Made by a program: the position numbers and the translations under genes
Source of the DNA: Chthoniobacteraceae bacterium
GTDB lineage: Bacteria > Verrucomicrobiota > Verrucomicrobiia > Chthoniobacterales > Chthoniobacteraceae
Assembly: GCA_028293625.1 (NCBI GenBank)
Contig: JAQGOL010000030.1
Location: 606,566-670,565, forward strand
DNA: 64,000 bases
Reading direction: 5' to 3'
Part shown: piece by piece, positions 26,740 through 44,496 of the stretch
Layout: every line of letters begins with the position of its first letter
Position numbering within the stretch: position 1 is the first letter of the stretch
The notes under the pieces: generated by a model
The model's database searches: none
Told to the model about the DNA's origin: nothing
What the model saw: only the letters and a program-made list of their open reading frames with translations

Positions 26740-29700
26740 TTATGGCGCCTGCTGCGGTGTGATTACACGATAAAAACGGCTGGCTGGAGCGGAGGTATCA
26801 ATCTGTTCCTCGACGCGATCAGCGGGCTGCGCGGGAAAATCGGCAAGCCGTTGCCAGACCCCGTCGCTAAGCGCATTCTTAAACTGGATCGTGTAAGAGT
26901 GGTTTGCACGGGCGGTGAAGCGGAGCGTGAATCCCGAAGGAGCGCGCGTGATCTCGGTTTGAAAGACGTCGTTGCCGTTGCGAGGATCGGTGGCAGCCAG
27001 ATATTCGGCCACATTCGACTGGCCGTCTCCGTCCACATCCTGAGCCGCATCGCCCGCGAAGAGCGGGTTGAGACCACTCGCGTTTTCCCAGGCATCGGGG
27101 ATCCCGTCGCCATCGCTGTCCGCGATCGCTGATTCTCCACTGTTTACTTTCCCGGGGGTTGGACTCGCAGCCGCCCAGTTTGCCGCATCGTTACCGATGA
27201 CGGCACGGCTTAATCTTTGCAGCGATGGTCCCGTGCCGTCCGGCGTTACCGGCCAGGGGGCGACCTGCGAATACTCGACCTTATCAACCCGGATATACGG
27301 AACAATCCCGCCGATAGCGGCATCGGGATACGCCAGTTCGATATTGGCGGTGCTATTAGCCAGCTTTGGAGTGAAGGGTCCGAAAATCGAAGTATTCTGG
27401 CCCAGAGCGTAATTGTTGCGGAAGGCAGCCAAGGTCGGAGCATCGGCGGGATCAAATCCAACCAATAGAATATAGTCTCCCGGAAGAATGCTGCTGCCCG
27501 CGGGAAATACAAAGTCAGCATCGCCCCGCAGTTTCCATCCCGTGAGATCGACAGGAGTGGTCGTGACATTGTGCAGTTCAACAAACTCATCCCGCACATT
27601 ATCAAACGTCCCAAGATCCGGCGGATGATACATGATCTCGTTGATGATCAGCGGCCCGTTCTTAGGCGGGGCATTGATCGCGCCAAAGGTACGCGTAATC
27701 AGCGGCCAAAACTCGAATCCATTCGCTTTTGCTATCCGGCCAAATGAGACCCCATCGGTTGCGGCGCCAAAACTCACCTCCGACTGGAATCCTGTCATCA
27801 CACCGGCTCCATCCACCGCCGAGAGGACGATTTCGTCGCCAAATGAGCTGAGCGAAAAACTGCCTTCCGTCCCGGGGGCGGCGTTGAAATCCAACTCGGT
27901 GAATACCTTGTATCCGCCCGCGGCAATGGTCGTGCCCGCTGCGATCCTATATTTCTTAGGAAAGCTCTTGTCATCGCTTAACCACCAGTTGCCGATGTCG
28001 ACGGCATTTGCTGTCGGATTATAGAGTTCAATTGTATCGCTCAGCGGCAAGGTCGAAGCGGATAACGCCTCGTTGATCACGATCGATGCCGGGAGGAAAT
28101 TACTTTCTCCAGGCGACCCGGATTGCGGAAACCGGGTCCAGCTCGGAGGAGTTCCCGCCGGCGTTGGCGCGCCATTTGGAAAGCGGCCCGCGGAAACATT
28201 TGTATCCTGAGCACCAAATGTCACCGAATCGATGGCCGTGATCCCGTTGCTGTTGGAAAGGATAATCGACTCGCCGCCGGCCTTTAAGCTGAAGTTGACA
28301 TGCTGAAATCCGGCGGTGCTGCTGTCGGCTACAAACTTCGTGAAACCTTCTCCTCCAATGAATGAGAGGGCAGGAATCTGCGTGATATTGGGCGTGCCGG
28401 GCGTGTCCGATAAATAAAGACCGGCGAGGGCGACCGGATTGGGATCGGGATTATAAAGTTCAAACCAATCCGAACCGGTCAACGGATCGGCCATCCACTC
28501 GTTGAGTTTTAATGTGGCGATGGAGCCAAGAGGCGTTTTTCCCACATTGGTGGAACCAGGCGAAGCAGTATTCAATGTCCACGTCCCGGTTCCATCGACC
28601 AGGCGGCCAATTGAGAGATCAGGCGCCTGCGGGCCGAACGCAACCACGTCGCGGACCACGCCATTTTGACTGAGTAAAATCCGGTCGCCACTGGCACCGA
28701 TCCCAAAGCCGGAGTGCAATCCGGGTGCCAGCGTCTCGCTATCGCACCAGATAACCAGATAGCCATTGGCGGGCACCGTCGTGCCGGCGGGGATCAGATA
28801 CTTATTCGGAAGCGAATCATCATTGCTTAAACTCCAGTTGCTGATGTCGATAACAGCTCCGGTATTATTCCTTAGTTCGACGTAGTCCGGATACGAACCG
28901 CCGTTGAGGATTGCCCGTCTGTTATCGGCCATGATCTCATTGAGTGAGATGCTGCCGGCAGTCGTGGACGTTGGACCGAATGAGAAGGAGGTTTCCGCTG
29001 AAGTAACCGAAGGATGTGCGTCTGCATCGTAATAGGTTACCCGCCAGTAGTAAGTCTGCCCAAAATCGAGCTGAGCAAACGGGATCGGCAATGACGTCTT
29101 GCTGGAACTGCTCGTGATAACCGCAACCGGATAGTCGTAATTGCTGTTGGCCGCGCGGATCTCCCATTTGGAGGAGGTATGCGGGCTGGGCAACGGGGCG
29201 GCGGTGTGGGTGGAAGCCGCATCGTAAAGATAGGCCGAGGCAGTCAGATTCGCGCCCGGCAAAACCGCGGAGGCATTGGAGGGCGCCGTGTGCGCGGGGC
29301 GTCGCGGTTTGTAAAAGATACCAGGAGCTGGCTGCGTGTTGGAGTTAACCTGCGAATTGACCGCGGTGAAGCGGGCACTCGCGAATCCGCCGTTCTGCGC
29401 ATTAATGAACGAGTAATAAGTGGCCGATCCGCCGCTCGATGTCGGGTAAGTGAGCGTCTGTAGGTTCTCTGGATCCAGCAATGTATTATTGAGAAACCAA
29501 AGCCGCAGGTTATACTCTTTTCGAAAGGCCTTGATAAATGAATCTTTGACGTAGTTCGGACCTCGAAAGTTATTTCCGGGAAAAGCGGATGGAAGCCCTT
29601 GTTCGCCGAGATAAATCGAGGAGCCTGAACCGGTACTGTCGCCGGTGCCATACATCGCATCAAAATCCCAGAGCACGCGAAACCATTTCCCATTGGCGCG

Positions 29701-31743
29701 CCGGTAAAGGAAGTGGTTTTGAGTCGTGTCATCCCATGGCGTCATCCAGTTCCCAAGCGCCATCGACGTCAACTCGGTATCGATATCCCAATTCGCCTGA
29801 AGCCACGCCTTGAGATTAGCCAGCTTGGGATTGGGCGAGGTATACGTGTCGCCGCGCGCGGCCCACATTCCCTTGATCATGTCACGAACTGGCGCCGCCC
29901 CTTTCCACGCATGGTTTTGCAACGCATAAGTATAATCATAGCGCTGCAGCTCAGTCCAGAAACCTGCCGCTGGCAGAAGCCACTCATTACCATTGCCGTA
30001 AGGTCCCTCGCCCGTGGCATTGCTTGAGACAATATATCCCCCGGATTTATAGTATTCACCGTTAGCCTCCTTTACAGAACCCGGATTCAATCGCTGTAAT
30101 TTCTCAAAATAAGACGTCAGCAGCTCATCATCATACTCTCCCTGCTCCACCCGTGGAATCGCCGAGTCGTTATTAAAATACCAGTCAACCCAGCGGACCG
30201 TGGAAAGTGGCAGGCCTGCCCGTTGATGAAGCCCATGAGCGGTCAGAAAAAAGTCGCTCTTATCCGTTTCAAAAATGGACGATACAAGATTGCCCGCGCC
30301 ATCTTTATACGGCTGGTATTCAGGAAAAAAGACCTTGAACGATTTACGGCTTGGCCTCCGATTCCAACGGCTGCCATGAAAGCGGACCTGGATATCATAA
30401 ATAACCCCGTTGCTCGCGAAAATCGCCGGCACAACGTCGTTCCAGAGCCGGTCGGTTACCGGAACATAAGGGGTTTCGCGTGGATAACTGTTCGCCGTGT
30501 TTTCAGCAGTCGTGCGCTTGGGAGATCCTTTGCAATTGTATCCCATTGACTGGAATCCATTAATTCCATTAAAGGCCGTCGTATTGGTAGACGCATTGTC
30601 GTCAACCACCGAGTTATCCGTCGGCACAATGATATCGATGATCGGCTTTAGCGAAGTGCGAGCCGGAGTCACAAAATACGCATACCATGGCTCGCGCGGC
30701 GCCGGGTTCTTCTTTAATGGCGAACCTGTATAGGTGGGACCGCCGGTTTGAACCACCGCAGGATCGTCAGCTCGCGGCGCGACTACTTCCACTCCATCCC
30801 CACGGTCCGCCTTGATGCGGTACCGGACAATGGTGCGATCGATTTGTCCCGGCAACGTTGCCGCATATTGGTTATTGCCAAGCGCGGTCATCGCCACCGT
30901 GAGCCGCGCTTCCCCAAAAGCATTCATGTTATCGAGGAAATACTCGACCTGCGCATTGGAAAGCGAATCGGTGCCGCTAAATGTGCAAGTTACTTTCACC
31001 GAGACTCCGGCGCGAATAACCGGCGCGTTGTCAGTGGAACGGACCGCCGAATAGGCCACCACCACCGGCTTGGGAGCAGGACGCGTAACGATATTGGCAG
31101 CGCCCGGCGTGGGAAGATCGGCAAATGGCAAAGCGCCCGCGGCCCGGAGAGCGACCCAGTTGGCCGGATCGTTCGAAGAAGCCGTGTCGCTCACCCGCTG
31201 AAGCGAACGTCCTTTGTATTGATAGGCGGTTGAATCAAGTCCGGTGAAATCGTCATCCGCCCCAAGCGCATTCGCGCTGATTGCCCACGGGAAACGCGCC
31301 TCGTAACTCACTGAATCGACAATCGTGCCGCTTGGATTGATCAACTCAATAGTATCCCCGCCGTTCCCGAGCTTTCCCGAGTATGGTCCAAGCACACCCG
31401 TTATGGCGTAAACGGATTGAATCCGCGCAGGATTCTTTGCAATGACAAGGTAGCCATCCGGGGGAATCGAAGTGCCGGCCGCGAAAGTAAAATCAACGCC
31501 TCCAAGTTTCCACCCGGCGATATCGACACTGGCAGCTCCCGCATTGCGCAACTCCACGAACTCATGAACATCGTCACTGATATCCGCCACGATTGTCGGC
31601 GCATCGGAGTAGACGGAAACTCCATTGGCATCAAATCGCGGTTTCTCAACGGGATGATAGTGTATCTCGTTAATAACGACCTGCCCGCCCGCCGGGAGAA
31701 TCATCAAGGCAAAGGCAAGCAGCAGGGAGAGAAAGAGTGGCAT
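26740..31743 (-). CDS. Giant secreted lamin-tail / CotH-kinase protein
   Basis: 1667 residues with a signal peptide (MPLFLSLLLAFALMILPAGG). Lamin-tail domain 1 (VVINEIHYHPVEKPRF, EFVELRNAGAASVDIAGWKL) lies at about 22-150. A CotH-kinase-like domain spans roughly 365-790 (DIQVRFHGSRWNRRPSRKSFKV; the HFLYRRANGKWFRVLWDFD segment holds the WDxD motif near 690). A fibronectin-like segment is near 815-925. Four more lamin-tail domains begin near 930, 1075, 1215 and 1360 (each with a INEIM/LNEWM-type start and an ELYN/ELRN core). A calcium-type repeat (DSDGDGIPDAWENASGLNP) is near 1540, and a C-terminal beta domain ends in FYRVITPQQAP. CotH proteins are Fam20C-like secreted protein kinases in spore formers. 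Here it is probably a surface or exported protein; substrate unknown. Confidence 0.88.
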   Translation of the reverse strand: MPLFLSLLLAFALMILPAGGQVVINEIHYHPVEKPRFDANGVSVYSDAPTIVADISDDVHEFVELRNAGAASVDIAGWKLGGVDFTFAAGTSIPPDGYLVIAKNPARIQSVYAITGVLGPYSGKLGNGGDTIELINPSGTIVDSVSYEARFPWAISANALGADDDFTGLDSTAYQYKGRSLQRVSDTASSNDPANWVALRAAGALPFADLPTPGAANIVTRPAPKPVVVAYSAVRSTDNAPVIRAGVSVKVTCTFSGTDSLSNAQVEYFLDNMNAFGEARLTVAMTALGNNQYAATLPGQIDRTIVRYRIKADRGDGVEVVAPRADDPAVVQTGGPTYTGSPLKKNPAPREPWYAYFVTPARTSLKPIIDIIVPTDNSVVDDNASTNTTAFNGINGFQSMGYNCKGSPKRTTAENTANSYPRETPYVPVTDRLWNDVVPAIFASNGVIYDIQVRFHGSRWNRRPSRKSFKVFFPEYQPYKDGAGNLVSSIFETDKSDFFLTAHGLHQRAGLPLSTVRWVDWYFNNDSAIPRVEQGEYDDELLTSYFEKLQRLNPGSVKEANGEYYKSGGYIVSSNATGEGPYGNGNEWLLPAAGFWTELQRYDYTYALQNHAWKGAAPVRDMIKGMWAARGDTYTSPNPKLANLKAWLQANWDIDTELTSMALGNWMTPWDDTTQNHFLYRRANGKWFRVLWDFDAMYGTGDSTGSGSSIYLGEQGLPSAFPGNNFRGPNYVKDSFIKAFRKEYNLRLWFLNNTLLDPENLQTLTYPTSSGGSATYYSFINAQNGGFASARFTAVNSQVNSNTQPAPGIFYKPRRPAHTAPSNASAVLPGANLTASAYLYDAASTHTAAPLPSPHTSSKWEIRAANSNYDYPVAVITSSSSKTSLPIPFAQLDFGQTYYWRVTYYDADAHPSVTSAETSFSFGPTSTTAGSISLNEIMADNRRAILNGGSYPDYVELRNNTGAVIDISNWSLSNDDSLPNKYLIPAGTTVPANGYLVIWCDSETLAPGLHSGFGIGASGDRILLSQNGVVRDVVAFGPQAPDLSIGRLVDGTGTWTLNTASPGSTNVGKTPLGSIATLKLNEWMADPLTGSDWFELYNPDPNPVALAGLYLSDTPGTPNITQIPALSFIGGEGFTKFVADSSTAGFQHVNFSLKAGGESIILSNSNGITAIDSVTFGAQDTNVSAGRFPNGAPTPAGTPPSWTRFPQSGSPGESNFLPASIVINEALSASTLPLSDTIELYNPTANAVDIGNWWLSDDKSFPKKYRIAAGTTIAAGGYKVFTELDFNAAPGTEGSFSLSSFGDEIVLSAVDGAGVMTGFQSEVSFGAATDGVSFGRIAKANGFEFWPLITRTFGAINAPPKNGPLIINEIMYHPPDLGTFDNVRDEFVELHNVTTTPVDLTGWKLRGDADFVFPAGSSILPGDYILLVGFDPADAPTLAAFRNNYALGQNTSIFGPFTPKLANSTANIELAYPDAAIGGIVPYIRVDKVEYSQVAPWPVTPDGTGPSLQRLSRAVIGNDAANWAAASPTPGKVNSGESAIADSDGDGIPDAWENASGLNPLFAGDAAQDVDGDGQSNVAEYLAATDPRNGNDVFQTEITRAPSGFTLRFTARANHSYTIQFKNALSDGVWQRLADFPAQPADRVEEQIDTSAPASRFYRVITPQQAP

Positions 31744-31867
31744 GGGAGGAAGCGGGCAAGCTGTTTTCGCGACTTCGCCCGGGGTAATGCATTAACGCAC
31801 AGCAACCGGGTCCGTTCAACGTATCAATCAACCGAACTCCTGCGAAAGGAAACCGAGCAAGGGCAAA

Positions 31868-32890
31868 TCAAATACGCTCCAACTTGATTGGATAGGTTTG
31901 TCCGGAAGCAAACTGGGCCACATAGAGGCTATCCTCATGATCGAGCACCAAGTCGTGCGGATGATGGAAGATTTCCTCTTGGTGATGCATCGGCAGAAGC
32001 TCGCCTGCGGCGTCGTAAACAGGGGGCGTGCCGGCGATATTTGAAACCACTCGCAAGTCGGCATTGAGCACGGAGATAAAACCGCGGCTCTCGCGGTCTT
32101 TAGGCCAGTTATCAGCCAGATGCGCGCAAAAGAAATGCCCTTTGTGCAGCCGGATCTGGCGCGGGTTTCCTCCGGGCAGCTGAATCCGGGCAAGCTTCTC
32201 CCCAGCCAGTGAAAGACGGAGGAGATGTTGTTGATCGCTCATCGCAATGAGCAGGGAGGGCGCGGCCGCATTGCGCCCATCAATCATTCCCCCATGCGGG
32301 CCCCAATGCGCAATCCCGCCTTCCGCTCCGCCAAGAATCTCCTGAAAACTTCCATCGGCGGCGTATCGGATAATGTAATCGCGTCCATACCCATCAAGAA
32401 CAAAGAAGCCGCCATCGGGCAAATGCAAGGTCCAGGAAGGCCGGTAATCGTCTTCCCTGGTATATTTGCCGCTTTTTAAGGGCCATCCCCACTCGTTGAG
32501 CAGCTCGCCATCGAGGGTGGTCTTTACTACCCGATGCGTATTAAGATCAGTGATGTAGAGAACTTCACGGCTGCCTTCATCAACAATGGAAAGCCCGTGA
32601 GCGCCGGGAAAGATGGAACCCCATTTATGCACCAGCCGGCCTTGCTTATCGTAGACAATCACATTGTTTTTCACGTGATCGGTTAGCAGAATAAGATGCC
32701 CTTCCCGGTCGCTTACCATCCCATGGCAATTATTTACCGGCGTCTCGGCATTAAGAACGCCCCAGTCCGGAACAACCCGATAACGGAATTCGCCCTGGCC
32801 TAATGTTCCCCGCGAATCGGCAGCGCGGGAGGTAATCAGAGTGCCGCCAGCGGCGGCGGCGGTTGTTCGAAGAAATGTGCGGCGATTCAT
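31868..32890 (-). CDS. Tat-exported NHL/six-bladed beta-propeller protein
   Basis: 340 residues from the ATG at 32890. The N-terminus MNRRTFLRTTAAAAGGTLIT carries a twin-arginine signal (RRTFL). NHL-type blades follow: NCHGMVSDREGHLILLTDH, GAHGLSIVDEGSREVLYITD, LNTHRVVKTTLDGELLNEWG and HHPHDLVLDHEDSLYVAQFASG. The last blades resemble peptidyl-alpha-amidating-lyase-like propellers, but no catalytic residues can be assigned by eye. The start codon overlaps the stop of the upstream lamin-tail/CotH gene (ATGA at 32887-32890), so the two are translationally coupled. The giant CotH gene follows after 124 bp. Confidence 0.88.
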   Translation of the reverse strand: MNRRTFLRTTAAAAGGTLITSRAADSRGTLGQGEFRYRVVPDWGVLNAETPVNNCHGMVSDREGHLILLTDHVKNNVIVYDKQGRLVHKWGSIFPGAHGLSIVDEGSREVLYITDLNTHRVVKTTLDGELLNEWGWPLKSGKYTREDDYRPSWTLHLPDGGFFVLDGYGRDYIIRYAADGSFQEILGGAEGGIAHWGPHGGMIDGRNAAAPSLLIAMSDQQHLLRLSLAGEKLARIQLPGGNPRQIRLHKGHFFCAHLADNWPKDRESRGFISVLNADLRVVSNIAGTPPVYDAAGELLPMHHQEEIFHHPHDLVLDHEDSLYVAQFASGQTYPIKLERI

Positions 32891-35547
32891 AAAGGAGCCC
32901 CTGCGGCAAACGTTACGGGCTCGCTCCAACGACTCCAACGCCCAGTGACATCTTTCATTCTTACACGCACCCGATAGGTAAGCCCGGGCTTGGCCAGCTT
33001 TGCCGGAATCCGGATGGTGTTGGCATAAGGCGCTATCTCCGGCGAAGTCCAGAGCGGCTCTATTTCGTAACGCCGTGGCTGGCCCGCCGTCCAGCCTGCC
33101 ACTCCCGGCGAAGCTATCTGGCCCAGACGCCATTGCACAGCGCCGCAGGAGTCTGCTCCCTGCGGATCGTGAAACTCCGAGCAATGAAACCCGAGTGCAT
33201 TCGCGGGAAATCCGGCGGGGCCGGAGTAACTAAGAGTGGGGCGCTCCGGAATATTGGGATCCGCGGCATCAGCGCGCAAGTAGCCGAAGCCATAACCGCG
33301 CGGGTCGCCATCGTTCAATTTCCAAGGAGGCGCCGTTGCAGGCCGCGAATCGCTGGCATACTCGAGCACGTAGCGACACATCCCGGCAAAATCGGGGGTC
33401 GCAAGCTTTCGATCCCAGCTGCCACCCATGCGATTGTCTTGCATCGGGTTTTTGTAAAAAACTCCTTTGCCTGTGGTTCGCGGATGAAAGTTCCAAAGTG
33501 CGGCATCCGCATCGGCCCACGATTGGGCGTGACCCGAGGGCTTGATCAAGGTTGCGTATTCATCAATCAACTGGCCGATTTGCCCGCCTGTGGGGGAGGT
33601 ATCGGCAAGGAGCAAGTCGAGCAGTTCGCGGCTTCGATTGGCGTAATCAACCTGCAAACCCGGCAGTGAAAAACAGCGATCCTGATCGATGCGGCCCGAC
33701 TGATGCGTCTTTGGCAGCAGCATCATATCGAGATCCCAGGGGATTGGCGCCCATCGCTCATCGGGCGCGTGGTAAAGAAAATGATTGGCGCCTTCGCGTA
33801 GATCGACATTGCCAGTGATTCGGTTGGCGGCACGAAAGGAGCACATCACCGGCATGTTAAGATGGGCACGCCACCAGGCCTCGGGTTGATTGCCCCGGGA
33901 TTGGTTCATAAACGCATTGAGATCCGAGCGATCCGTAGGTTGGGAATGCCCCTGGTGCTCCTTCTTATCGGATTCACTGCTGTAAATACTCCCGTCGCCC
34001 AAATCACGCTCATCAAGGAATGAGCCGTCCGGGTTCTCGATCGCCATATATAATCCCCAAAAATCGCTGTCGAACTGGCTCTTGGTTTCTTCAGCCTGAT
34101 CCACGACCCGAAAATGAACTGGGATATGACGCGCTGTTGGCACTCCGGCCAATTCGAAAATTCGCGAGGAAAACCATTCATCAAGTCCGGCCATGCCCCG
34201 GTGCGCGGGCACCCATGGGCTTGCGCAGGCGTTCATCGAAAATGAGCCCCAGCTTCGAACAATTGCCCGGCCGGCCGGGTCGCGCATGACAAGCGGGTGC
34301 CCACGGGCAAACTGAAATGCCCACTTGTTTTTGCCGGTATTATAAGTCGAACCACTCCCCCGAATATGACAGGCTATATGATCGTATACCCGGCCTTCAA
34401 AGATAAGCGTACCCGGGAATTTGCGATGATTCCAGCCGCTGTCCCACTGCGAATGCTTGATATCATCAGCGTTGGCGAGCAATTGGAACGTCGGAAGGGA
34501 AGTAAGCAAGGCGGGCCCGTAAGTTACCATCGGCGACTTTCCCGGCTCCAAGGCGCCGCTCCATTCCGGCACGCCGTCGTAGACGTAAAGCGCAAAATCA
34601 GGCACCGGATCGCCGCTATCCGGCGTCTGGCCTCGCATTCCTTTTGCATCCTCCGCCACGATTCGATACCGGATCAGCCGCCGGTGCACGGCATCTGTTG
34701 CAGGAAGCCTTGTTGTATAGATGCCGTCGCCGGCTTTGAGATCCCCATCACTTCCCTCATCGCGCATCGGCAGCTCTATCCAGCTCTTTTCGTACGCGGC
34801 ATCGGTGCGGCGAATATATGCGCCAGGCTCCACGAGCTGATACAAAAGCGTCACCGCCTTGACTCCATCGGGATCGCTGACACGGGCGGCAATGGAAATG
34901 GAAGTTCCCGCCTTGGGTGCCTGCGGCGAATGGGCTGCCTCCGTAACAAAAGGAGACGCGTTTTCGGCCGCGATGGAGTTGAGCTTTCCTGGAGTAGGTC
35001 CGCCCGCCCGCCATGAGCCGGGCGATTTTCTATCAAAAGCAGGATTGATGAGTTCCAACGAACGTCCGCCGCCTGCCGCCTGAGCAGGCCATGGAGGGCC
35101 TGCCGCATATCTAACTTCATCAACAACGGCGCCCCGTGCATCGGCCAGTTGAAGAAGTTCGCCTTCGTTTTTGAGTTTGCCTTTCCACGGACCCAGTGGG
35201 GTGAACCCAAACTCCTTCTGAAAGAGCTTCGGATCGGTGGCGACACAAACCGACGATTTAGACGCGACAAGCGTCTTGTCAGGGAAACTGAACTTGATTC
35301 CGCTAACAAAGCGCCATTGGCCAAGGTCTACCGGAGCATCGCCGGCATTGTAGAGCTCGATAAATTCAAGGGCTTTTGTCTTATCGGCGGGATCATAGAA
35401 AATTTCATTGATCACCACCTGCCCTTTGACATGGGGCACAAGTCCGAAGCTCAGAAGCACGGCGGCTGTCCAGGGGAATGCCGGGCTGCACATTCGACGC
35501 GCCGGAAGCCGGCAACGATTCAAAGCCGCGTGGAAGGAAATGTGCAT
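32887..35547 (-). CDS. Secreted lamin-tail / CotH-kinase family protein
   Basis: 886 residues with a long N-terminus before a hydrophobic signal segment (AFPWTAAVLLSFGLVPHVKG). A lamin-tail domain (VVINEIFYDPADKTKALEFIELYNAG) covers about 44-190. An Ig-like segment (ISIAARVSDPDGVKAVTLLY) is near 210-320. A CotH domain is at about 350-690, with FEGRVYDHIACHIRGSGS, WGLYMAIENPDGSFLDERDL and the APIPWDLDMM segment carrying WDxD. A C-terminal fibronectin-like domain ends LTYRVRVRMKDVTGRWSRWSEP. It is shorter than, and clearly a relative of, the 1667-residue protein downstream. It overlaps the Tat-NHL gene by 4 bases. Confidence 0.88.
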   Translation of the reverse strand: MHISFHAALNRCRLPARRMCSPAFPWTAAVLLSFGLVPHVKGQVVINEIFYDPADKTKALEFIELYNAGDAPVDLGQWRFVSGIKFSFPDKTLVASKSSVCVATDPKLFQKEFGFTPLGPWKGKLKNEGELLQLADARGAVVDEVRYAAGPPWPAQAAGGGRSLELINPAFDRKSPGSWRAGGPTPGKLNSIAAENASPFVTEAAHSPQAPKAGTSISIAARVSDPDGVKAVTLLYQLVEPGAYIRRTDAAYEKSWIELPMRDEGSDGDLKAGDGIYTTRLPATDAVHRRLIRYRIVAEDAKGMRGQTPDSGDPVPDFALYVYDGVPEWSGALEPGKSPMVTYGPALLTSLPTFQLLANADDIKHSQWDSGWNHRKFPGTLIFEGRVYDHIACHIRGSGSTYNTGKNKWAFQFARGHPLVMRDPAGRAIVRSWGSFSMNACASPWVPAHRGMAGLDEWFSSRIFELAGVPTARHIPVHFRVVDQAEETKSQFDSDFWGLYMAIENPDGSFLDERDLGDGSIYSSESDKKEHQGHSQPTDRSDLNAFMNQSRGNQPEAWWRAHLNMPVMCSFRAANRITGNVDLREGANHFLYHAPDERWAPIPWDLDMMLLPKTHQSGRIDQDRCFSLPGLQVDYANRSRELLDLLLADTSPTGGQIGQLIDEYATLIKPSGHAQSWADADAALWNFHPRTTGKGVFYKNPMQDNRMGGSWDRKLATPDFAGMCRYVLEYASDSRPATAPPWKLNDGDPRGYGFGYLRADAADPNIPERPTLSYSGPAGFPANALGFHCSEFHDPQGADSCGAVQWRLGQIASPGVAGWTAGQPRRYEIEPLWTSPEIAPYANTIRIPAKLAKPGLTYRVRVRMKDVTGRWSRWSEPVTFAAGAPL

Positions 35548-35626: not shown

Positions 35627-38600
35627 TCAGATACGGCGCATGGAACGGCGGAAGCGTTTAAGGCCCAGCAGGATGCCGGCACCGCCAAGGAGAGCAAGCG
35701 AGCCGGGCTCTGGAACTGCCACAGTGAGGATAATGTCGTGGCCGCTATCAGCGAAGCTGAGAGTACCTATGAAGCCATTAAAGGAGCCGGAGAGATTGGC
35801 GCCAAAAGTACCAACGATCGGACTGCTGGTATCAAAGAGCGTATAGGTATTGCCGGCCGCAAGACCTCCCGCATCGCTGAAGGTAAAATCATCAATGCCA
35901 AGGAGCCCGGCGCCGATGTCGAGGCTGCCGAGCGTAAGAACGATTTTGTCACTTGAAGCAACGTTCCCCAGATCAAAGAGAAGCGCATGCGAGCCCGCCG
36001 TCTTGACGGCATCGGCGAGTTTGAGCCCCCCCGTTCCGCCCAGCGTCATCGTAAGGGTGCCGGTCCCCGCAAGGCCCGGGGCGAGTTTGGCGCCATCGGC
36101 CAGAACCACGTTTCCATTGATGGCCGTGGTGATGGTGCCATTGCCGCCCAGCGTGGCAAAGCTGGCGACATTGACGCCTGTCGTCCCACTTAGTGAGCCG
36201 CCAACCAACAAACTTCCGCCATTGATGTTAGTAGCACCCGTGTAGGTACTGTCGCCTTTTAATGTCCAGGCGCCGGTGCCCGCCTTCGTGACATTGCCGG
36301 TGCCGGAAATCACGCCAGAGAATGTTGTGCTGGTGTTGTCGCCGCCCGCAGTGAGGGTGCCTGAACCCAGCAAAACCTGATGGCCTGTAACAGCTCCTGC
36401 AGCATCCGAGACTGAGCCGACTTTGATGGCATTACTGCTGATGTCGAAGGTGGTATTGCTGGAAAGAACCACCGCGGAGTTGCTTGGCACACCGCTTGAG
36501 ACATCGGTACCAGTGGTGAGGATTGAGCCATCCCCTGGGTCCGTGAAAGGGAGCCAGTTCGTGCCGCCATCAAGGCTATACGCCACACCAAATCCGCCGA
36601 CTCCACCATTGGCCGGTCCCACACCGCCGCCGCCCTGGCCAACGCGCAATTCGACCGAATGATAGCCCGGCGTCAGGTTATAATTGCCTGTAGTCTGCGC
36701 ATTCCACACTGTGTCCCTAAGGATCTGGACACCATCGATCAGCAAAAGCACGTTGTCGTCGAAGTTCTCGGAGAACGTCACGGTAGCCGGAGAGCTGGTG
36801 CCGTTGAGGATCTTGCCGGTATAACCCCAGGTGGAGTTATCTATAAACGCCCCGGTATCAGTGCTGTTGGCCCGCTCCGTCGTAAGCTTCACGCCATCGT
36901 GCGGGATGGGATTTGTCTCATCAAAGGCAGCTGCAAGCCGTCCTTCAAAAAGACCCGGTTGCGATACTCCGGTTGCTTCAGGCAATTTGATAGTTCCGGC
37001 CGTGATTTCGGTTTTTCCGGAATAATAGTTGGTTCCACCCAGCGTCAGCGTCCCACTCCCCACTTTCGTGAGGCCGCCCGTGCCGCCGATTCCGCCATCG
37101 AAGCTGGTCGAGCTATTGTCGGAGCCTACAGTGAGTGTTGCTGAACCAAGAGCGACATTTCCCTTACCGGTAATCGAGGGGACACTTTGATTGAACCCAT
37201 CAAGGTCTAAAGTAGCGACCTGAGTCACCGTTACAGGACCGCTGCTCAATCCATTAACGTGACCTATCTTCAGAGTGCCGCCGATTACGTTGGTCCCGCC
37301 GGTGTAAGTATTCGCACCCGTGATGGTCTGAGTCCCGGTGCCAAATTTACTGACGGAGCCGATTCCGGTAATTACGCCGCTGAAGGCTCCGTTGCCGTTA
37401 TCGGTGCCGACTACAAGGTTACCGGTTTTCAGCGATACACTACCCGCGCCGGAGAGCGAGGAGATCGCGAGATCCGGCGTTATCTGGCCACTGGCGGCAG
37501 CAGAACCGAGATCGACCATGACGTTATCTCCTGGACCGCTCATCTGGGCATTCATGCCATAACCGCCGCCTCCCTGATAAAAGCCGACCGCGATGTTATG
37601 TAATCCCGCTGCCAACGCGACGGAGTTGGCTCGGGTTGTTGGGCCCTGGAAGAAATTGTTGTCTACAACAAGATTGCCATCGATGAAGATAACGCTGCCA
37701 TCGTCACTGGTTGTATTGAATGTATACAGCCCTTCCGTTGGGATATTAAGCATTCCCGAGTGGTAAGTCTGAAGATTGGTGGCGTTAATATTATAAGGAG
37801 CCGGAAATCCTTTGCCAGTCAGCTCGAAATTGAGCGTGGTGGCATTGCCAACTATCGTCGCAGTGCTGGATGCAACGCTCGCGAGCAGTTTATCCTGGCT
37901 CACGAAGTTAGGATTGGTGTTACTCAGATTCGCCGGCGCGAGGTTAAAATACTGGCCAAGCAGCCCTACGCTCCCGGTTTGCGAGACCGAGAGTGTCGCC
38001 CCGGCAGCCACAGTTACCGCGCCGGTGCCCAAGGCGCGGGCGCCCGCCACGACAGTTCCCGCGTTGATCGTTGTGCCGCCGGTATAGTTGCCATCCTTGG
38101 CCAGCACCATGATGCCGGTGCCGGTCTTCACCAAGCCGCTGCCGGCGTCGCTGATTGTGGAGGCAACCCGCAAATCGACCGCCCCTGTGCCGAGGGCGAC
38201 ATTAAACTCCACCGGGCTGCCTGTCACCGCTCCGCCACGGAGCGTGATCTTCGGAGCGCTGATAACCGAGGGATCGGCGCTGGCGCCCGTCGTGATTGAA
38301 CCATCCAGGATATAGTTTCCAGGGCCATCGCCATCGCCAGCCGCCGCGAGGCTGCCTGCTGTCATGGTGATTGCAGGCAAGGTGGCATGAATGCCAGGGG
38401 CAATGGTCAGGGTGCCGCCATTCAAAGTAACCGGGGCCACACTACCGCTTCCGTAGCCCAGCGCATCAGCCGCGTCCAGGCGCAAGGCAGCTCCCGAGTT
38501 GACAGTTACAACCGAAGCGGCCGGAAGCGTTCCGGTATTGCCGCCGACAGCCAGTGCAAGAGTGCCGCCATTGACGGTAGTCCCGCCAGTATACGTATTG

Positions 38601-41600
38601 GCGCTGGTAAGAACCAACACGCCCGCATTATTCTTAACCACGTTGCCGGTTCCGCTGATGACACCGGCGTACGTGCCCGTCGTAATCGCAGGTGAAGCAA
38701 GCGCCTGATTAAAGATCAATGTGCCGTTGTTGGTGATGAGCCCTTGCAGACTTGCGCTGGTGCCTTCCACGGTTCCCGCAGAAATGGTTGTGCCACCCGT
38801 ATAGGAGTTTGGAGCTCTCATGGTGAGGGTTCCTGTTCCCGTTTTGGAAAGCCCGCCGGCTCCCGTGATGGACCCGTTACTAATCGTCGTGTTCCCGGCG
38901 CCGCCTACTGTCAGATTAAAGCCGGCGTTAACAATGCCACCGGTCAATTCAAGCGAGCCGGCTGTGGTTTGAATGGCAGAAGCGCTGCCAAGGGTAATGG
39001 GTCCGGCATAGATATTGGTGCCACTCACGTTATTCAGCGCGCCCGCCGCAGCGCTCGCAAGGCCCGCCCCATTGAGAATCAAGGGAATAGCGGGTGTGGA
39101 AATATTACCTTCCAACTGCAACGCGGCTCCATTCGCTACGGTAACACCCACGGAAGTGCCAAGCGCAGCCGGGTTGGAGATATTGATGGCACCCGCGTTG
39201 ATGACCACCGCGCCTGTAAAGGTATTGGCGTTTTGCAGCCTCACAAGGCCAGTCCCCGTTTTGGTAATCGACGCGCCGCCCGTGATGCCTGCGTTCCCGC
39301 TCAGCGTATAGGGAACTGCGCTGTTATTGAAGGTGATCGAGGTCGGAGCAACGTTCGTATTGATCGTCACCGAGCCATTGGTGATGGGCGCGTTCCCGTT
39401 GGCCGGGTTCGTGTCCTGGAATACCACAATATTGCCATCGCTATAGCTTGTGGCCACTGAACCGTTGGCCCAGTTCGTCGGCACCGGACTCCAGATCGAA
39501 TTGGCAGCTCCATTGCCGCCGGTTTGTCCCGTCCAGGTCAAAGACTGGATGGCAAGCGTCAAGGTAATCTTGTTTGCCGTATTGGTAAACGTATAGGTTC
39601 TTCCCGGCTGCGTCGCGAAGGTCGTTGCCGGGTTAAAGCCGGTGGCCGTGCCCGTGTAAGTAAAGAGCGTATAGGTTCCCGCCGCTGGAATTGATCCCTT
39701 GCCGCTCGCGTTGGCATCATCAAAGAGAAGGAGGTTAAGGCCACTGCTTGGAAGCACGAGATTGCCGTTGACCGCAATGACACCGCCGAAAGTGGACCCG
39801 CCCAGCCAGTAACTTAGCTTGGCGCCGGAAACCAGCGTCAGATTGCCAACCGTCAAGACACCAATGTTACCGGTGCCCGGCGAGACCGTGCTGCCGGAGA
39901 CAGTTGTCACCCCTCCAAGCACTGTGCCGTTTCCATTAAGCGTCTCGGTGCCAGTCAGGGTGATTCCGCCTCCGCTCAAACCGGTGACATCAAGAGTCCC
40001 ACCCGTACCGACAGTAAGCACTGGAGAGCTCGACAGAATGTTCGTGCCCGCATTTTCGAGTTTCAAGGTGCCCCCGGACACCAATGTATTGCCAGTGTAG
40101 GCTGCTGGACTTTTAAGAATAAGGATGCCCGGACCAGCCTTGGTCAAACCGGCACCGGTGCCGGAAATCACACCACCAACAGTCAGGGTATTGGAATTAA
40201 CTGTAACCTGACGGGTGCCGGTCAGGGTAACATTGCCGGTTCCCAGATTGAGATTCTTGTTGCCGGTATAGCTGAAGTTCCCCGCCCACGTCTGAGCATT
40301 GTTCGTGGTAAGCGTCACATCGGAAAGGCCCGTGCTCCCAATGCTGCCGCCGTTGATAACCAATGGGCCGGTTCCAATGGCCGAGGGGTTATTCAGGTTC
40401 AGGCCGCCCGTATTGAGCGTGGTGGCGCCCGTGTAGTTGCTCGCGCCTCCAAGACTCTGTGTTCCCGTGCCGATTTTAGTCAGCGTTCCCGCACCGGTAA
40501 TGGAGCCTGAAAACGTTGTGGAGGTATTATCGCTGCCGATGGTCAGGGCCGCAGCGCCGATAATCACCGTCTGACCGGTTGCCCCGCCCGCGGAATCCGC
40601 CAGCGAGCCGATGGTCTGCACGGCACTGGTTACATCAAGGGTGGTATTGGCTGACATCACAACAGCCGATGTCGCGGGCAGCGCACCGTAGCCGAGGTTC
40701 AACAAGCTGCCATCGCCCGGGTCAGTCACCGGAACATAATTGGTTGCCACCGCTTCATTCCGGCCCAGTGAATCGTAACCGAACCCGATTCCACCTGTAA
40801 ACCAGCCCTGATTACTTGGCCCGACGCCACCGCCGCCCTGCCCAAAGCGGGCCTCCAATACATGCCGTCCGGGCGTCAGTGTGTAGTTGGCTTTTGTCGG
40901 AGAATTCCACGCCGTATCATTGAGCACCGTGACGCCATCGATCTTCAGGAGCACGCTGTCGTCGAAGTTCTCGGCGAATGTCCATGTTACGTTCGTGGAG
41001 GAAGGGTTAAGGATGTAGCCGGTATAACCCCAGGTCGAGTTATCAACAAAATCCGGAGCCGCATTGCTCTCAGACTTGGGAGTGCCAAGCGTGATGTTGG
41101 TGGGCGGAATGGGATTGGTAACATCAAACGAGTTATTGAGCAGGTGCCCTTCATTAAGGCCCGGTTGAAGCGGATTGAGTTTGAGGGTGCCTCCGGTGAT
41201 CGTTGTCGGGCCGGTATAGGTACTGATATCCGAAAGCGTGAGCGTTCCCGCCCCGCTCTTTACGAACCCTCCCGCACCATCGACCGTACTATACACCCTG
41301 GAGTCGTTGCCATTCGTGTCGATCGTGCCCACACCGGTCACCGTCACCGGCGCGCGAAGCCCAAGCCCGCCGGCTGCCGCGCGAAGAGTCGCATTATTAA
41401 TCGTTACACGACTCGTGGAGGCAAGACCTGCCGTATTGGAACCAAGCGTGCCGCCGCTAACAACCGTAGGCCCCGTATACGTATTTGCACCGGTAAAATT
41501 CACAGTGCCCGCGTTCACCTTGGTCACGGATCCGACGCCACTGATTACCCCTGCGTAATCATTTGAGGCAGGAGCCGGAGTGGAAAGTGCCTGATCAAAG

Positions 41601-42586
41601 ATGAGGGCGCCCGCGTTGATGATATTCCCCTTCAAGCTTCCCGTGTGGCCAATGAGCGTGCCGACAGCGATAATGCTGGCACCGGTGTTAGTATTCGCCC
41701 CGGTCAGTGTCAGCGTTCCGGTGCCCCACTTGGTGACTCCGCCAATCCCGGAAAGGACCCCGCTATAAGTCGTGTCGCTGTTATCCTGGCCGGTAATGAT
41801 ATTGCCTGTAGGTAACGCCAAGGGCGTAGCGCCGGAAAGCGGCGTCTGCAGGACGATGTCAGGCGTTAGCTTTGCATTCGGATTGTTCACATCCAGATCG
41901 ACCATGGCCGTATCCCCCGGCCCGCTGATCTGCGCATTAAGACCAAAACCGCCGCCGCCCTCATAATAACCGACCGCGATATTATGATAGCCGGCGGATA
42001 AAGTGATTGTTCCAGTCCGGGTTGTTACTCCTTGAGAAAAGTTATTATTGACAACCGTTTGGCCGTCAATGAAGAGCATGCTGCCATCGTCACTGCTTGT
42101 ATTGAACGTATAGAGTCCCGCCGTGCCGATATTCAGCAAGCCGGAGTAGAAGCTCTCCACATTAACGGCATTCACGTTATACGGAGCTGGAAACCCGCTG
42201 CCGTTTGTCTGGAAATTCAACGTCGGTGAATTATCGATGATCAACGCCGGCACGCCTGAACTCAGATGCGTCTGCAGGCTAATGAACGTATTAAAATTCG
42301 GGTCCGAACCATTGATATTGGCCGGCGCAATATTGAAGTACTGGCCAAGCAATCCTGTATTGTCGCCTTGCGCCCGCGCGGCTTCAAGAGGCCCAAAGAG
42401 TGCAGCGGTTGCGGCGATAGCCATAAATCCCAACCCACCGCGTCCGGACGTCCCTGCAATGACATCCGTACAGGCCAGGCGCAGGGACGGCGCCTTGGAA
42501 CGATTGCGGACGGGACTAGCCGGAATCTGCTGTCCCGTAGATGTGTTTACGCGGCGTTTGTGAGATGACGATAGGATGGAGCTCAT
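35627..42586 (-). CDS. Giant PATR-repeat / PA14 protein with PEP-CTERM sorting signal
   Basis: 2319 residues from the ATG at 42586 (MSSILSSSHKRRVNTSTGQQ). A start at 42703 would add 39 residues and cross an inverted repeat, so I prefer the inner one. A long basic n-region of about 45 residues precedes the hydrophobic GLGFMAIAATAALFGPLEAARA. The protein holds about 12 passenger-associated (PATR) repeats of the type TKxGxGTLTLxGxxxYTGxTxI. Two PA14-like domains are built around LLGQYFNIAPANI / LLGQYFNLAPANL, and two further related modules around FVDNSTWGYTGYIL / FIDNSTWGYTGKIL. The C-terminus VPEPGSLALLGGAGILLGLK plus an Arg-rich tail is a PEP-CTERM signal. There is no autotransporter barrel. 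It is probably exported and anchored through an exosortase encoded elsewhere. Confidence 0.9.
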   Translation of the reverse strand: MSSILSSSHKRRVNTSTGQQIPASPVRNRSKAPSLRLACTDVIAGTSGRGGLGFMAIAATAALFGPLEAARAQGDNTGLLGQYFNIAPANINGSDPNFNTFISLQTHLSSGVPALIIDNSPTLNFQTNGSGFPAPYNVNAVNVESFYSGLLNIGTAGLYTFNTSSDDGSMLFIDGQTVVNNNFSQGVTTRTGTITLSAGYHNIAVGYYEGGGGFGLNAQISGPGDTAMVDLDVNNPNAKLTPDIVLQTPLSGATPLALPTGNIITGQDNSDTTYSGVLSGIGGVTKWGTGTLTLTGANTNTGASIIAVGTLIGHTGSLKGNIINAGALIFDQALSTPAPASNDYAGVISGVGSVTKVNAGTVNFTGANTYTGPTVVSGGTLGSNTAGLASTSRVTINNATLRAAAGGLGLRAPVTVTGVGTIDTNGNDSRVYSTVDGAGGFVKSGAGTLTLSDISTYTGPTTITGGTLKLNPLQPGLNEGHLLNNSFDVTNPIPPTNITLGTPKSESNAAPDFVDNSTWGYTGYILNPSSTNVTWTFAENFDDSVLLKIDGVTVLNDTAWNSPTKANYTLTPGRHVLEARFGQGGGGVGPSNQGWFTGGIGFGYDSLGRNEAVATNYVPVTDPGDGSLLNLGYGALPATSAVVMSANTTLDVTSAVQTIGSLADSAGGATGQTVIIGAAALTIGSDNTSTTFSGSITGAGTLTKIGTGTQSLGGASNYTGATTLNTGGLNLNNPSAIGTGPLVINGGSIGSTGLSDVTLTTNNAQTWAGNFSYTGNKNLNLGTGNVTLTGTRQVTVNSNTLTVGGVISGTGAGLTKAGPGILILKSPAAYTGNTLVSGGTLKLENAGTNILSSSPVLTVGTGGTLDVTGLSGGGITLTGTETLNGNGTVLGGVTTVSGSTVSPGTGNIGVLTVGNLTLVSGAKLSYWLGGSTFGGVIAVNGNLVLPSSGLNLLLFDDANASGKGSIPAAGTYTLFTYTGTATGFNPATTFATQPGRTYTFTNTANKITLTLAIQSLTWTGQTGGNGAANSIWSPVPTNWANGSVATSYSDGNIVVFQDTNPANGNAPITNGSVTINTNVAPTSITFNNSAVPYTLSGNAGITGGASITKTGTGLVRLQNANTFTGAVVINAGAINISNPAALGTSVGVTVANGAALQLEGNISTPAIPLILNGAGLASAAAGALNNVSGTNIYAGPITLGSASAIQTTAGSLELTGGIVNAGFNLTVGGAGNTTISNGSITGAGGLSKTGTGTLTMRAPNSYTGGTTISAGTVEGTSASLQGLITNNGTLIFNQALASPAITTGTYAGVISGTGNVVKNNAGVLVLTSANTYTGGTTVNGGTLALAVGGNTGTLPAASVVTVNSGAALRLDAADALGYGSGSVAPVTLNGGTLTIAPGIHATLPAITMTAGSLAAAGDGDGPGNYILDGSITTGASADPSVISAPKITLRGGAVTGSPVEFNVALGTGAVDLRVASTISDAGSGLVKTGTGIMVLAKDGNYTGGTTINAGTVVAGARALGTGAVTVAAGATLSVSQTGSVGLLGQYFNLAPANLSNTNPNFVSQDKLLASVASSTATIVGNATTLNFELTGKGFPAPYNINATNLQTYHSGMLNIPTEGLYTFNTTSDDGSVIFIDGNLVVDNNFFQGPTTRANSVALAAGLHNIAVGFYQGGGGYGMNAQMSGPGDNVMVDLGSAAASGQITPDLAISSLSGAGSVSLKTGNLVVGTDNGNGAFSGVITGIGSVSKFGTGTQTITGANTYTGGTNVIGGTLKIGHVNGLSSGPVTVTQVATLDLDGFNQSVPSITGKGNVALGSATLTVGSDNSSTSFDGGIGGTGGLTKVGSGTLTLGGTNYYSGKTEITAGTIKLPEATGVSQPGLFEGRLAAAFDETNPIPHDGVKLTTERANSTDTGAFIDNSTWGYTGKILNGTSSPATVTFSENFDDNVLLLIDGVQILRDTVWNAQTTGNYNLTPGYHSVELRVGQGGGGVGPANGGVGGFGVAYSLDGGTNWLPFTDPGDGSILTTGTDVSSGVPSNSAVVLSSNTTFDISSNAIKVGSVSDAAGAVTGHQVLLGSGTLTAGGDNTSTTFSGVISGTGNVTKAGTGAWTLKGDSTYTGATNINGGSLLVGGSLSGTTGVNVASFATLGGNGTITTAINGNVVLADGAKLAPGLAGTGTLTMTLGGTGGLKLADAVKTAGSHALLFDLGNVASSDKIVLTLGSLDIGAGLLGIDDFTFSDAGGLAAGNTYTLFDTSSPIVGTFGANLSGSFNGFIGTLSFADSGHDIILTVAVPEPGSLALLGGAGILLGLKRFRRSMRRI

Positions 42587-42957
42587 GGGGGAAAGAGGGA
42601 GGAACTGCCGATTCGGGGGGATTGGGGTGAACCAGGGAAATTTCCTATCATTAATGAAACCTTTTTCAAATAGCTCATTTGAGTCATTATCGTTCCACAG
42701 CACCTAACAATGAGCGGCGGCGCTTTCCGCTGGCCCCTCTACGGAAGCTTATAAGCGCCCGAATCGAGGGGCACGCTTTGCCGCGATTCCGCGACAGAAG
42801 GCGGAGGCATGTTTACTGGTTCCCTACAATCGGCGAATTGATTTTATCAAATGCGGAGCACCCCGGGCGGCGCTCCCTTTCGAGCTTCCCCGAGTTCGCC
42901 TTTTTTAAATTTCGCTACTGGCTTGCGTCGCTACTCTTTTAGTAAACCTTCGCGCGC
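42587..42957. other. Divergent promoter region of the PATR giant and the halogenase
   Basis: 371 bp between two divergently read genes. It holds an inverted repeat (listed separately) and an AT-rich run (about 42640-42690). The half nearer the halogenase is GC-rich up to about 42900 and ends in ttttttaaattt before the ATG at 42958. A short open frame on the plus strand (42679-42942) has no convincing features. No RNA gene was recognised. Confidence 0.5.
42666..42682. promoter_or_regulatory. Inverted repeat, candidate operator
   Basis: TCAAAT-AGCTC-ATTTGA is a perfect 6 bp inverted repeat with a 5 nt spacer, about 80 bp before the PATR giant start and about 275 bp before the halogenase start. 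The spacing suits a dimeric regulator, but there is no direct evidence for one. Confidence 0.3.
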
Positions 42958-44496
42958 ATGAACATCGTTATCATAGGTGGTGGCGCTGCAGGTTGGATGG
43001 CGGCCATCGCCATTTCCGCCCGTTTTCCGGAAATGCAAGTTACAATTATCGACCCGAAAGCGATTGGCCCGATAGGCGTTGGAGAAAGTGTCACCGGAGT
43101 GGTCATTAATTTCGTCACCGACCCGCTGCACGGATTAAGTCTGGGGGAGATGTTCCGCCGTTGCGGCGCCACCTATAAGACCGGAATTTGGTATAAAAAC
43201 TGGCACGGCCCCGGGACTGAGTATCTTTCCACGATCGATTCGCCCAGCCTCTTCTTTAAACACAATTATGATAATTGTATGGAAGAATTTTATGCGAGTG
43301 CAATCGCCTCCAATGTCAATATAAGTGAGTTATTGCACTATGGCCTGCTGATGAGAAATGGTCTGACCGATCATTTCCGGATGGCTGACGGAACCGTGAA
43401 TTCCGAATTCGCATTCGCTTCCTGTCATTTTGACGCGCTGAAGTTCGCCGCGTGGTTGCAGGAAGTGGGACCCCGCCGTGCGAACCTGCATCATGTCGAC
43501 GATGTCCTCCAATCATTCGAGCAGGACCCGCAAACCGGGCACGTCACAAAAATTCGCACATGCACGGGACACGAAATTGCCGGAGATTTTTTCATCGATT
43601 GCTCAGGCTTCCACCGGACGCTTTTTGAGAAAGCCTATCGGCCGCAATGGAAAAGTTATGCCGATCATATCCGGGTCGATTCCGCGATCCCGAGCTTCGT
43701 ACCGTATGCCAATGGAGAGCAGGTTCCCAACTATACAATGGCGACCGCCATGCCTCATGGCTGGATGTGGCAAATCCCCACGCAATCCCGCCTCGGGAGA
43801 GGTTACATTTTTTCTTCCCGCTACGTCAGTGACGAGCAAGCGATCGCCGACTTTCGGAGCACCGGGGTCGATCTGGGCGAAAGTCCGCGAATCCTTCATT
43901 TCTCACCCGGTCGATTTGAGAAGCTCTGGATTGGAAACGTCTGCACGATTGGTTTGGCCGGTGTTTTTTCCGAGCCTCTGGAAGCTTCGACAATTCATGG
44001 CATGTATGTGCAGATCCGGTTGCTGACTGAGTTATTCCTCCCCTTTTACTCCACGGATTCAGCAAAAGTGATGGCTGCTCAATACAACCAATTGTGCACG
44101 GCTGCGTATGACGACTACGTGGATTTCATTAGCTTCCACTACCGCACCGGCCGCTCGGACACCGAGTTTTGGAGCGACTACCAAAAGCCCTCGGCGATCA
44201 CATCGGCCAATGCCGCGCGGATGGAAAAATGGCGTTACGCCTTTCCCGTGCGCGAAGACTTCGCGCCGACCTATACCCAGCTCGCAGGCCTGACCACCGG
44301 GCTTGTGATCTGGGCGCCAATGCTCGCCGGGCTCGGTTTTTTGCGCGCCGAAGTGGCGGACAGATTCGTGCGAATGTCCCGTTACCCGAAAAAGATCGAG
44401 GAGAATATGGCGCAGTATATCAAGATCAGAAACCGCGTTGTTACCACTGCGCTGACGCAGGCCGAAGCGATTGATTACATGCGGAGTCGGCAGTAA
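42958..44496 (+). CDS. Flavin-dependent halogenase (tryptophan halogenase family)
   Basis: 512 residues. The FAD-binding N-terminus is MNIVIIGGGAAGWMAAIAI (GxGxxG-type). IGVGESVTG follows, then the Lys74 in ATYKTGIWYKNW, which aligns with the catalytic Lys of PrnA/RebH. GWMWQIP (268-274) matches the WxWxIP signature that keeps the family from acting as monooxygenases. Glu342 in VFSEPLEAST fits the glutamate near the halide site. Such enzymes use FADH2, oxygen and halide to make an enzyme-channelled hypohalous species that halogenates indoles or other aromatics. A separate flavin reductase is normally required and none lies nearby. No TonB receptor or biosynthetic cluster is adjacent, so the substrate is unknown. 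Confidence 0.9.
   Translation: MNIVIIGGGAAGWMAAIAISARFPEMQVTIIDPKAIGPIGVGESVTGVVINFVTDPLHGLSLGEMFRRCGATYKTGIWYKNWHGPGTEYLSTIDSPSLFFKHNYDNCMEEFYASAIASNVNISELLHYGLLMRNGLTDHFRMADGTVNSEFAFASCHFDALKFAAWLQEVGPRRANLHHVDDVLQSFEQDPQTGHVTKIRTCTGHEIAGDFFIDCSGFHRTLFEKAYRPQWKSYADHIRVDSAIPSFVPYANGEQVPNYTMATAMPHGWMWQIPTQSRLGRGYIFSSRYVSDEQAIADFRSTGVDLGESPRILHFSPGRFEKLWIGNVCTIGLAGVFSEPLEASTIHGMYVQIRLLTELFLPFYSTDSAKVMAAQYNQLCTAAYDDYVDFISFHYRTGRSDTEFWSDYQKPSAITSANAARMEKWRYAFPVREDFAPTYTQLAGLTTGLVIWAPMLAGLGFLRAEVADRFVRMSRYPKKIEENMAQYIKIRNRVVTTALTQAEAIDYMRSRQ

Follow-up and report, generated by a model that had tools for sequence, protein, structure and literature searches.

Two proteins encoded in the 64,000-nucleotide window analysed here, termed A and C, combine a CotH kinase domain with lamin tail domains (LTD), and the gene for C lies directly downstream of a gene, D, whose product ends in a PEP-CTERM sorting signal. 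Across the genome that contains the window (G000; 6.83 Mb in 43 contigs) and that of a relative (G013), 17 of 83 CotH genes follow a PEP-CTERM gene in this manner, and the CotH domains of G000 are mostly fused to an LTD. We tentatively favour a reading, to which we give somewhat less than an even chance, in which exported CotH kinases have a surface-anchored neighbour as their candidate substrate. As a clue from gene order, the PEP-CTERM gene upstream is better than the trio of A, C and the propeller protein B between them, on which the first-pass annotation had centred. Should the pairing be real, it would name specific candidate kinase-substrate pairs on which exported protein phosphorylation in Verrucomicrobiota could be studied, a process that to our knowledge has been little explored.

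The four genes lie on the minus strand and are read in the order D, C, B, A. D (35627-42703; 2358 aa) is a PATR-repeat and PA14 protein (Pfam PATR 175.5 bits over 12 stretches, PA14 89.3 bits over two). Its C-terminal PEP-CTERM signal (residues 2330-2353; 35645-35716) reaches 23.0 bits with the NCBIfam model TIGR02595 (cut-off 16) and 17.0 with the Pfam PEP-CTERM model, below the cut-off of 20.7. D falls outside the segment from 26740 to 35547 and was absent from the first-pass annotation. After 79 bp it is followed by C (32887-35547; 886 aa), which contains an LTD (PF00932, 64.1 bits), a CotH domain (58.8 bits; PF08757 cut-off 23.8) and an Fn3-like part. B (31868-32890) is an NHL-type propeller (22.2 bits, cut-off 20) of 340 aa with a Tat-like leader, the latter scoring 19.9 bits in Pfam, below the cut-off of 22.7; B also matches the TRIM71 chain 8j72 (E 1.3e-6). 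The length of B is counted from its ATG, which overlaps the TGA of C by four bases as ATGA; the open reading frame as listed begins at a TTG further upstream. A (26740-31743; 1667 aa) follows after 124 bp and has five LTD stretches (248.9 bits), a divergent CotH domain (35.2 bits, against the same PF08757 cut-off) and a weak TSP3 repeat. The earlier description of two LTD-CotH genes flanking a propeller, with a four-base overlap, was thus accurate in position and in domain content (CotH and LTD in A and C, NHL in B). The four genes may be co-transcribed. Promoter- and terminator-like sites in the run are no commoner than in shuffled sequence. With the NCBIfam models, neither A nor C, nor one further protein of the window, has a PEP-CTERM match at its end.

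Two other genes of the window are of note. A 2065-aa protein (12163-18360) has RCC1 propeller repeats together with a beta-helix part and a single LTD, with no CotH match listed, and a tryptophan-halogenase-like gene (42958-44496; Pfam 297 bits) is divergent from D.

The pairing of PEP-CTERM and CotH genes was counted on genes called by our own script from open frames of at least 100 aa, rather than by a gene finder, and with our own PEP-CTERM pattern; the NCBIfam check covered the 17 positives as well as the protein ends mentioned above. Where the immediate upstream neighbour of a CotH gene lies on the same strand, it ends in PEP-CTERM in 17 of 46 cases (7/20 in G000 and 10/26 in G013), compared with 10 of 662 other non-CotH genes of the same loci (6/280 and 4/382; Fisher test, 2.6e-6 and 1.5e-10, respectively). 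The 17 pairs are separated by 5 to 155 bp. Of the 17 PEP-positive neighbours, 16, including D, pass the TIGR02595 cut-off when the last 149 aa are scanned; the exception, at locus L220, matches other PEP-CTERM families only. The CotH proteins themselves carry no such signal (0/83 by our pattern rule). In 16 of the 17 pairs, the CotH protein retains both of the conserved Asp residues discussed below, while G013:C51 has Glu for the first. The further domains of the partners vary: D and several others have PATR, DUF642 and CBM96 also occur, and in some no other domain was found.

Does this arrangement reflect a functional relationship, or does it merely bring together surface genes? Surface genes might be regulated together or transferred together in this lineage, with no kinase-substrate relationship; we regard this as the most serious alternative, though somewhat less probable than our favoured reading. 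The pairing is specific for both position and strand, which argues against it: for neighbours upstream on the opposite strand, PEP-CTERM was found in 1/12 (G000) and 2/25 (G013), for those downstream on the same strand in 2/17 and 1/23, and for those downstream on the opposite strand in 0/15 and 1/25. Other large genes of the same loci rarely show it, with a same-strand PEP-CTERM gene upstream in 1 of 44 non-CotH genes of at least 800 aa, 2 of 68 of at least 600 aa and 2 of 147 of at least 400 aa. It is also kept in orthologous CotH genes. Among 22 reciprocal-best CotH pairs between G000 and G013, PEP-CTERM lies upstream on both sides in three, on one side in four, the pair of C being one of them, and on neither in 15. 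The CotH proteins of the three kept pairs are 68, 64 and 59% identical. In one of these pairs the PEP-CTERM partners are alike over roughly the first 400 residues (35% identity, E 2e-42) and have a weak likeness in the tail (60% over 25 residues, E 1.1), the G013 partner being about 2,000 residues longer; in another, the likeness lies in the PATR stretches, and in the remaining one it is weak. The D-C pair is not kept in G013, where the reciprocal-best relative of C has its neighbour on the opposite strand.

Co-regulation or shared transfer is favoured by the narrow distribution of the pairing and by its variable passenger domains. The pairing was read in G000 and G013 only, and it is not general. 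PEP-CTERM was found upstream in 0 of 9 cases among 22 CotH genes from five further genomes, in 0 of 43 for 83 CotH genes at 80 C-family loci, and in 0 of 4 for 14 CotH genes at the whole-genome loci of C orthologues plus locus L154, a sample that overlaps the 80-locus one. The five-genome sample took its CotH places from the upper part of the match list and the second consists of the C type, whereas eight of the ten paired cases in G013 score under 60 bits; these samples thus cover different CotH classes from the G013 pairs. Hints from coordinates alone come from two genomes of the same genus as G013, in which a PATR gene lies upstream of a C-like gene at G028:C111, G028:C123 (where the C-like gene was matched in its LTD part only) and G031:C95. 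Other arrangements occur in these genomes as well, with CotH upstream of PATR at G028:C21, and the two genes convergent or divergent at G031:C89 and C174.

We dropped an initial idea that CotH is linked to PATR repeats themselves, as four further upstream neighbours in G000 carry PEP-CTERM without PATR. No PATR gene within about 10 kb of CotH appeared among the matches listed for ten other genomes, in part the best-scoring ones only, so that this negative carries little weight. In a tree of the 83 CotH domains of G000 and G013, the 13 genes with PATR upstream do not group together (11 changes; shuffled trees average 12.3, and 63 of 500 shuffles are as low), giving no sign of one duplicated unit, in a tree that is weak because the domains are short and divergent. 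No report of a PEP-CTERM-CotH gene pairing was found in the literature searched.

Our favoured reading, that of exported kinases with an anchored neighbour as candidate substrate, further depends on whether the CotH domains are catalytic. A model of C built from 16 sequences (mean pLDDT 77.5) has the fold of the CotH kinase. The best Foldseek match is CotH of Bacillus cereus (5jd9/5jda; E 3.8e-12), and residues of about 350-763 (33259-34500, minus strand) align with 5jd9 over 316 residues (Z 21.9, 2.8 Å, about 19% identity). Only the kinase part of C, without the LTD and Fn3 parts, corresponds to the 358-residue B. cereus chain. The N-terminal part of the model (LTD, residues about 40-147; 35107-35430) resembles the lamin A/C tail 1ifr (Z 9.7), and its C-terminal part resembles Fn3 domains. 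A phmmer search of C against the PDB yielded four cytokine-receptor chains only, none with an E value better than 0.13. When 11 CotH domains of G000, C and A included, are combined into a profile, 5jd9 is found with E 7.3e-31.

The catalytic and metal-binding Asp pair of CotH is in place in C. In an alignment of C with 15 relatives at 44-52% identity, Gly397, Lys406, Glu457, Asp582, Asn588, Asp605 and Asp607 are invariant in all 16 sequences, which points to selection on chemistry. Asp582 (33802-33804), the counterpart of the catalytic Asp of CotH, aligns in the profile alignment with the Asp of the NFD motif of B. cereus CotH, and Asp605 (33733-33735), the first Asp of the WDxD motif, likewise aligns with a B. 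cereus Asp. The two are 23 residues apart, the spacing that also separates D228 from D251 in CotH of B. subtilis; there the D228Q variant is inactive according to the excerpts of PMC7821199. In A, the match to the CotH C-lobe (residues 642-762; 29458-29820, minus strand) contains Asp671/672, Asn676, Asp693 and Asp695, invariant in the three sequences aligned. The position of Arg466 of A is occupied by Lys in six of the nine sequences with a letter there, and the same profile column has Lys in 42 of 59 such cases among the 83 CotH proteins. The model of residues 1-930 of A (pLDDT 33) gives no usable fold comparison. From these residues, together with Arg466 and the low-confidence model of A, C is a good kinase candidate, while A is less sure and may be weaker or inactive. 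The first-pass annotation had noted a WDxD motif in both CotH proteins and considered kinase activity possible. The motifs are indeed present as WDFD and WDLD, and kinase activity is possible, as the metal-binding and catalytic Asp pair is retained in C and A and the predicted structure of C has the B. cereus fold.

A and C belong to a large paralogous expansion of CotH in this Chthoniobacteraceae-type bacterium. G000 has 32 CotH genes and G013 has 52; the set of 83 proteins used here comprises the 32 of G000 and 51 of G013, G013:C39 having been dropped for a stop. CotH is present in 26 of the 97 genomes searched, G000 included, indicating that the expansion is patchy. An LTD is also carried by 26 of the 32 CotH genes in G000, a count obtained by manually pairing CotH and LTD matches that share a contig and an open frame. 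The fusion of the two domains, which had initially been called unexplained, is thus ordinary here, and it is in print for Cthe_0239 of Clostridium thermocellum, where the excerpt of PMC6083626 gives the order LTD, LTD, Fn3, CotH. The same domain types therefore meet in one protein there as in C, although the excerpt places Cthe_0239 among the cellulosomal proteins of a Firmicute. Relatives of C were found as 335 stretches across Verrucomicrobiota and some Planctomycetota records, 80 of which were kept; none was found in plasmids, and a scan of the genome contigs with C alone as query gave no match.

Within this family, the CotH fold might instead serve mainly as a structural or binding module of an adhesive surface or matrix protein, alongside LTD, Ig and Fn3 domains, with catalysis being vestigial or limited to autophosphorylation during assembly. 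We consider this unlikely, albeit worth weighing. The proteins are very large and multidomain, one or other Asp of the pair is missing from 13 of the 83, and A has Arg in a column that is mostly Lys. Moreover, a kinase exported from the cell would have to use ATP outside the cytoplasm, where ATP is scarce, and this counts against exported kinase activity. On the other hand, both Asp residues are kept in 70 of the 83 proteins, and a vestigial site does not sit well with the strict invariance of the active-site residues in the 16 C-family sequences.

Some CotH proteins of G000 and G013 show coordinated changes. In seven, Glu replaces the first Asp while Asp replaces the Asn, and in three the second Asp has become Gly (HGxD); such changes may mark CotH classes with altered chemistry. 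A 1826-aa frame at locus L174 (G013:C6) carries PATR repeats (two matches) and a CotH domain together, and may thus unite both kinds of partner in one protein.

For the reading in which the CotH proteins are active kinases, the following picture may be drawn. A and C would be exported, atypical CotH-family kinases built as surface proteins with lamin tail and Ig/Fn3-type domains. Of the two, C would probably be a competent kinase acting on Ser/Thr residues of a protein at the cell surface. The likeliest partner of C would be the PEP-CTERM protein D, whose gene ends 79 bp before that of C. We put D forward as the first candidate substrate by analogy with B. subtilis, in which cotB, cotG and cotH are clustered (excerpts of PMC7821199). 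CotB and CotG are substrates of Bacillus CotH. The likeness of C to Bacillus CotH extends to the kinase fold, the placement of the catalytic Asp pair and the Asn, and a gene that adjoins that of the candidate substrate. Bacillus CotH acts in the spore coat, whereas A and C appear to be exported, judging by eye from their N-terminal leaders.

The CotH literature that we found mostly concerns Bacillus spore coats and Mucorales fungi. One parallel from a non-spore former is Sfz6 of Zetaproteobacteria, in which CotH is likewise part of a large protein tied to an extracellular structure; in the available portion of PMC8250860, Sfz6 has SH3 in place of LTD and belongs to a stalk gene cluster. PEP-CTERM/exosortase sorting, the system to which the TIGR02595 signals of D and the other partners belong, is known from the verrucomicrobium Akkermansia muciniphila, for which the text seen of PMC3048395 counts 21 such proteins.

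The proposal can be extended to a two-gene cassette of a PEP-CTERM protein followed by an exported LTD-CotH kinase, which would have multiplied in some Chthoniobacteraceae-type bacteria. Each kinase would phosphorylate its own exosortase-anchored neighbour and thereby control assembly of a surface layer, as a diderm counterpart of the CotB/CotG-CotH module of the spore coat. This extension is speculative and we think it improbable.

The trio of A, B and C fares worst as a functional unit. Nine orthologues of B with 60-69% identity were found in eight genomes, and their flanks, which reach up to about 9 kb per side and are short for some contigs, contain no similarity to A, C, D or CotH. The same holds for three distant relatives of B (34-37% identity). 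Conversely, a B-like propeller is absent from the 80 C-family loci of named records (E 1e-5). At 15 loci of C relatives from whole genomes, about ten of which are the same contigs as among the 80, a B-like gene occurs only at L155, where it is 23% identical and 3.7 kb away; in total, about 85 C-family loci yield one propeller of any kind, a distant one. Two relatives of A have no B-like gene beside them. The co-occurrence of the trio in other genomes, whose absence the first-pass annotation had named as a refutation, was thus not found, and its gene order fails to recur, with a distant propeller at 1 of 15 C loci. Among the loci read, this genome alone has the trio.

At locus L154 (5948-8666; genome G017), a gene for a distant NHL propeller is followed after 58 bp by a CotH gene of 554 aa, which is without matches to A or C. 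Joint action of the propeller and the two CotH proteins in exported phosphorylation, despite the ATGA overlap of B and C and the distant propellers on the CotH contigs at L154 and L155, is very unlikely given the nine close B orthologues without CotH in their flanks, the 80 C-family loci without a B-like propeller and the DUF1501 and PSCyt genes near four B-type loci.

Those four loci (L093, L096, L099 and L102) suggest what the usual role of the propeller is. Seven neighbours at these loci were chosen by eye and scanned, and six proved to be DUF1501 or PSCyt1/PSCyt2/PSD1 genes; the seventh, adjoining B at L096, is a pyridine-nucleotide-disulphide oxidoreductase. The DUF1501/PSCyt/PSD1 genes directly adjoin the propeller at L093 and at L102, where the propeller is a distant relative; at L096 and L099 the distance is about 3 to 7 kb. 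This suggests that B-type propellers usually act in a DUF1501/PSCyt module. B seems native to a different setting and to have joined the run here. DUF1501 is also encountered next to CotH in G000. At L225:10655-12112 and L224:6250-7602, two CotH genes, one without and one with an LTD, are each preceded on the same strand by a DUF1501 gene, at distances of 32 and 66 bp. DUF1501 is thus possibly another partner type of CotH genes.
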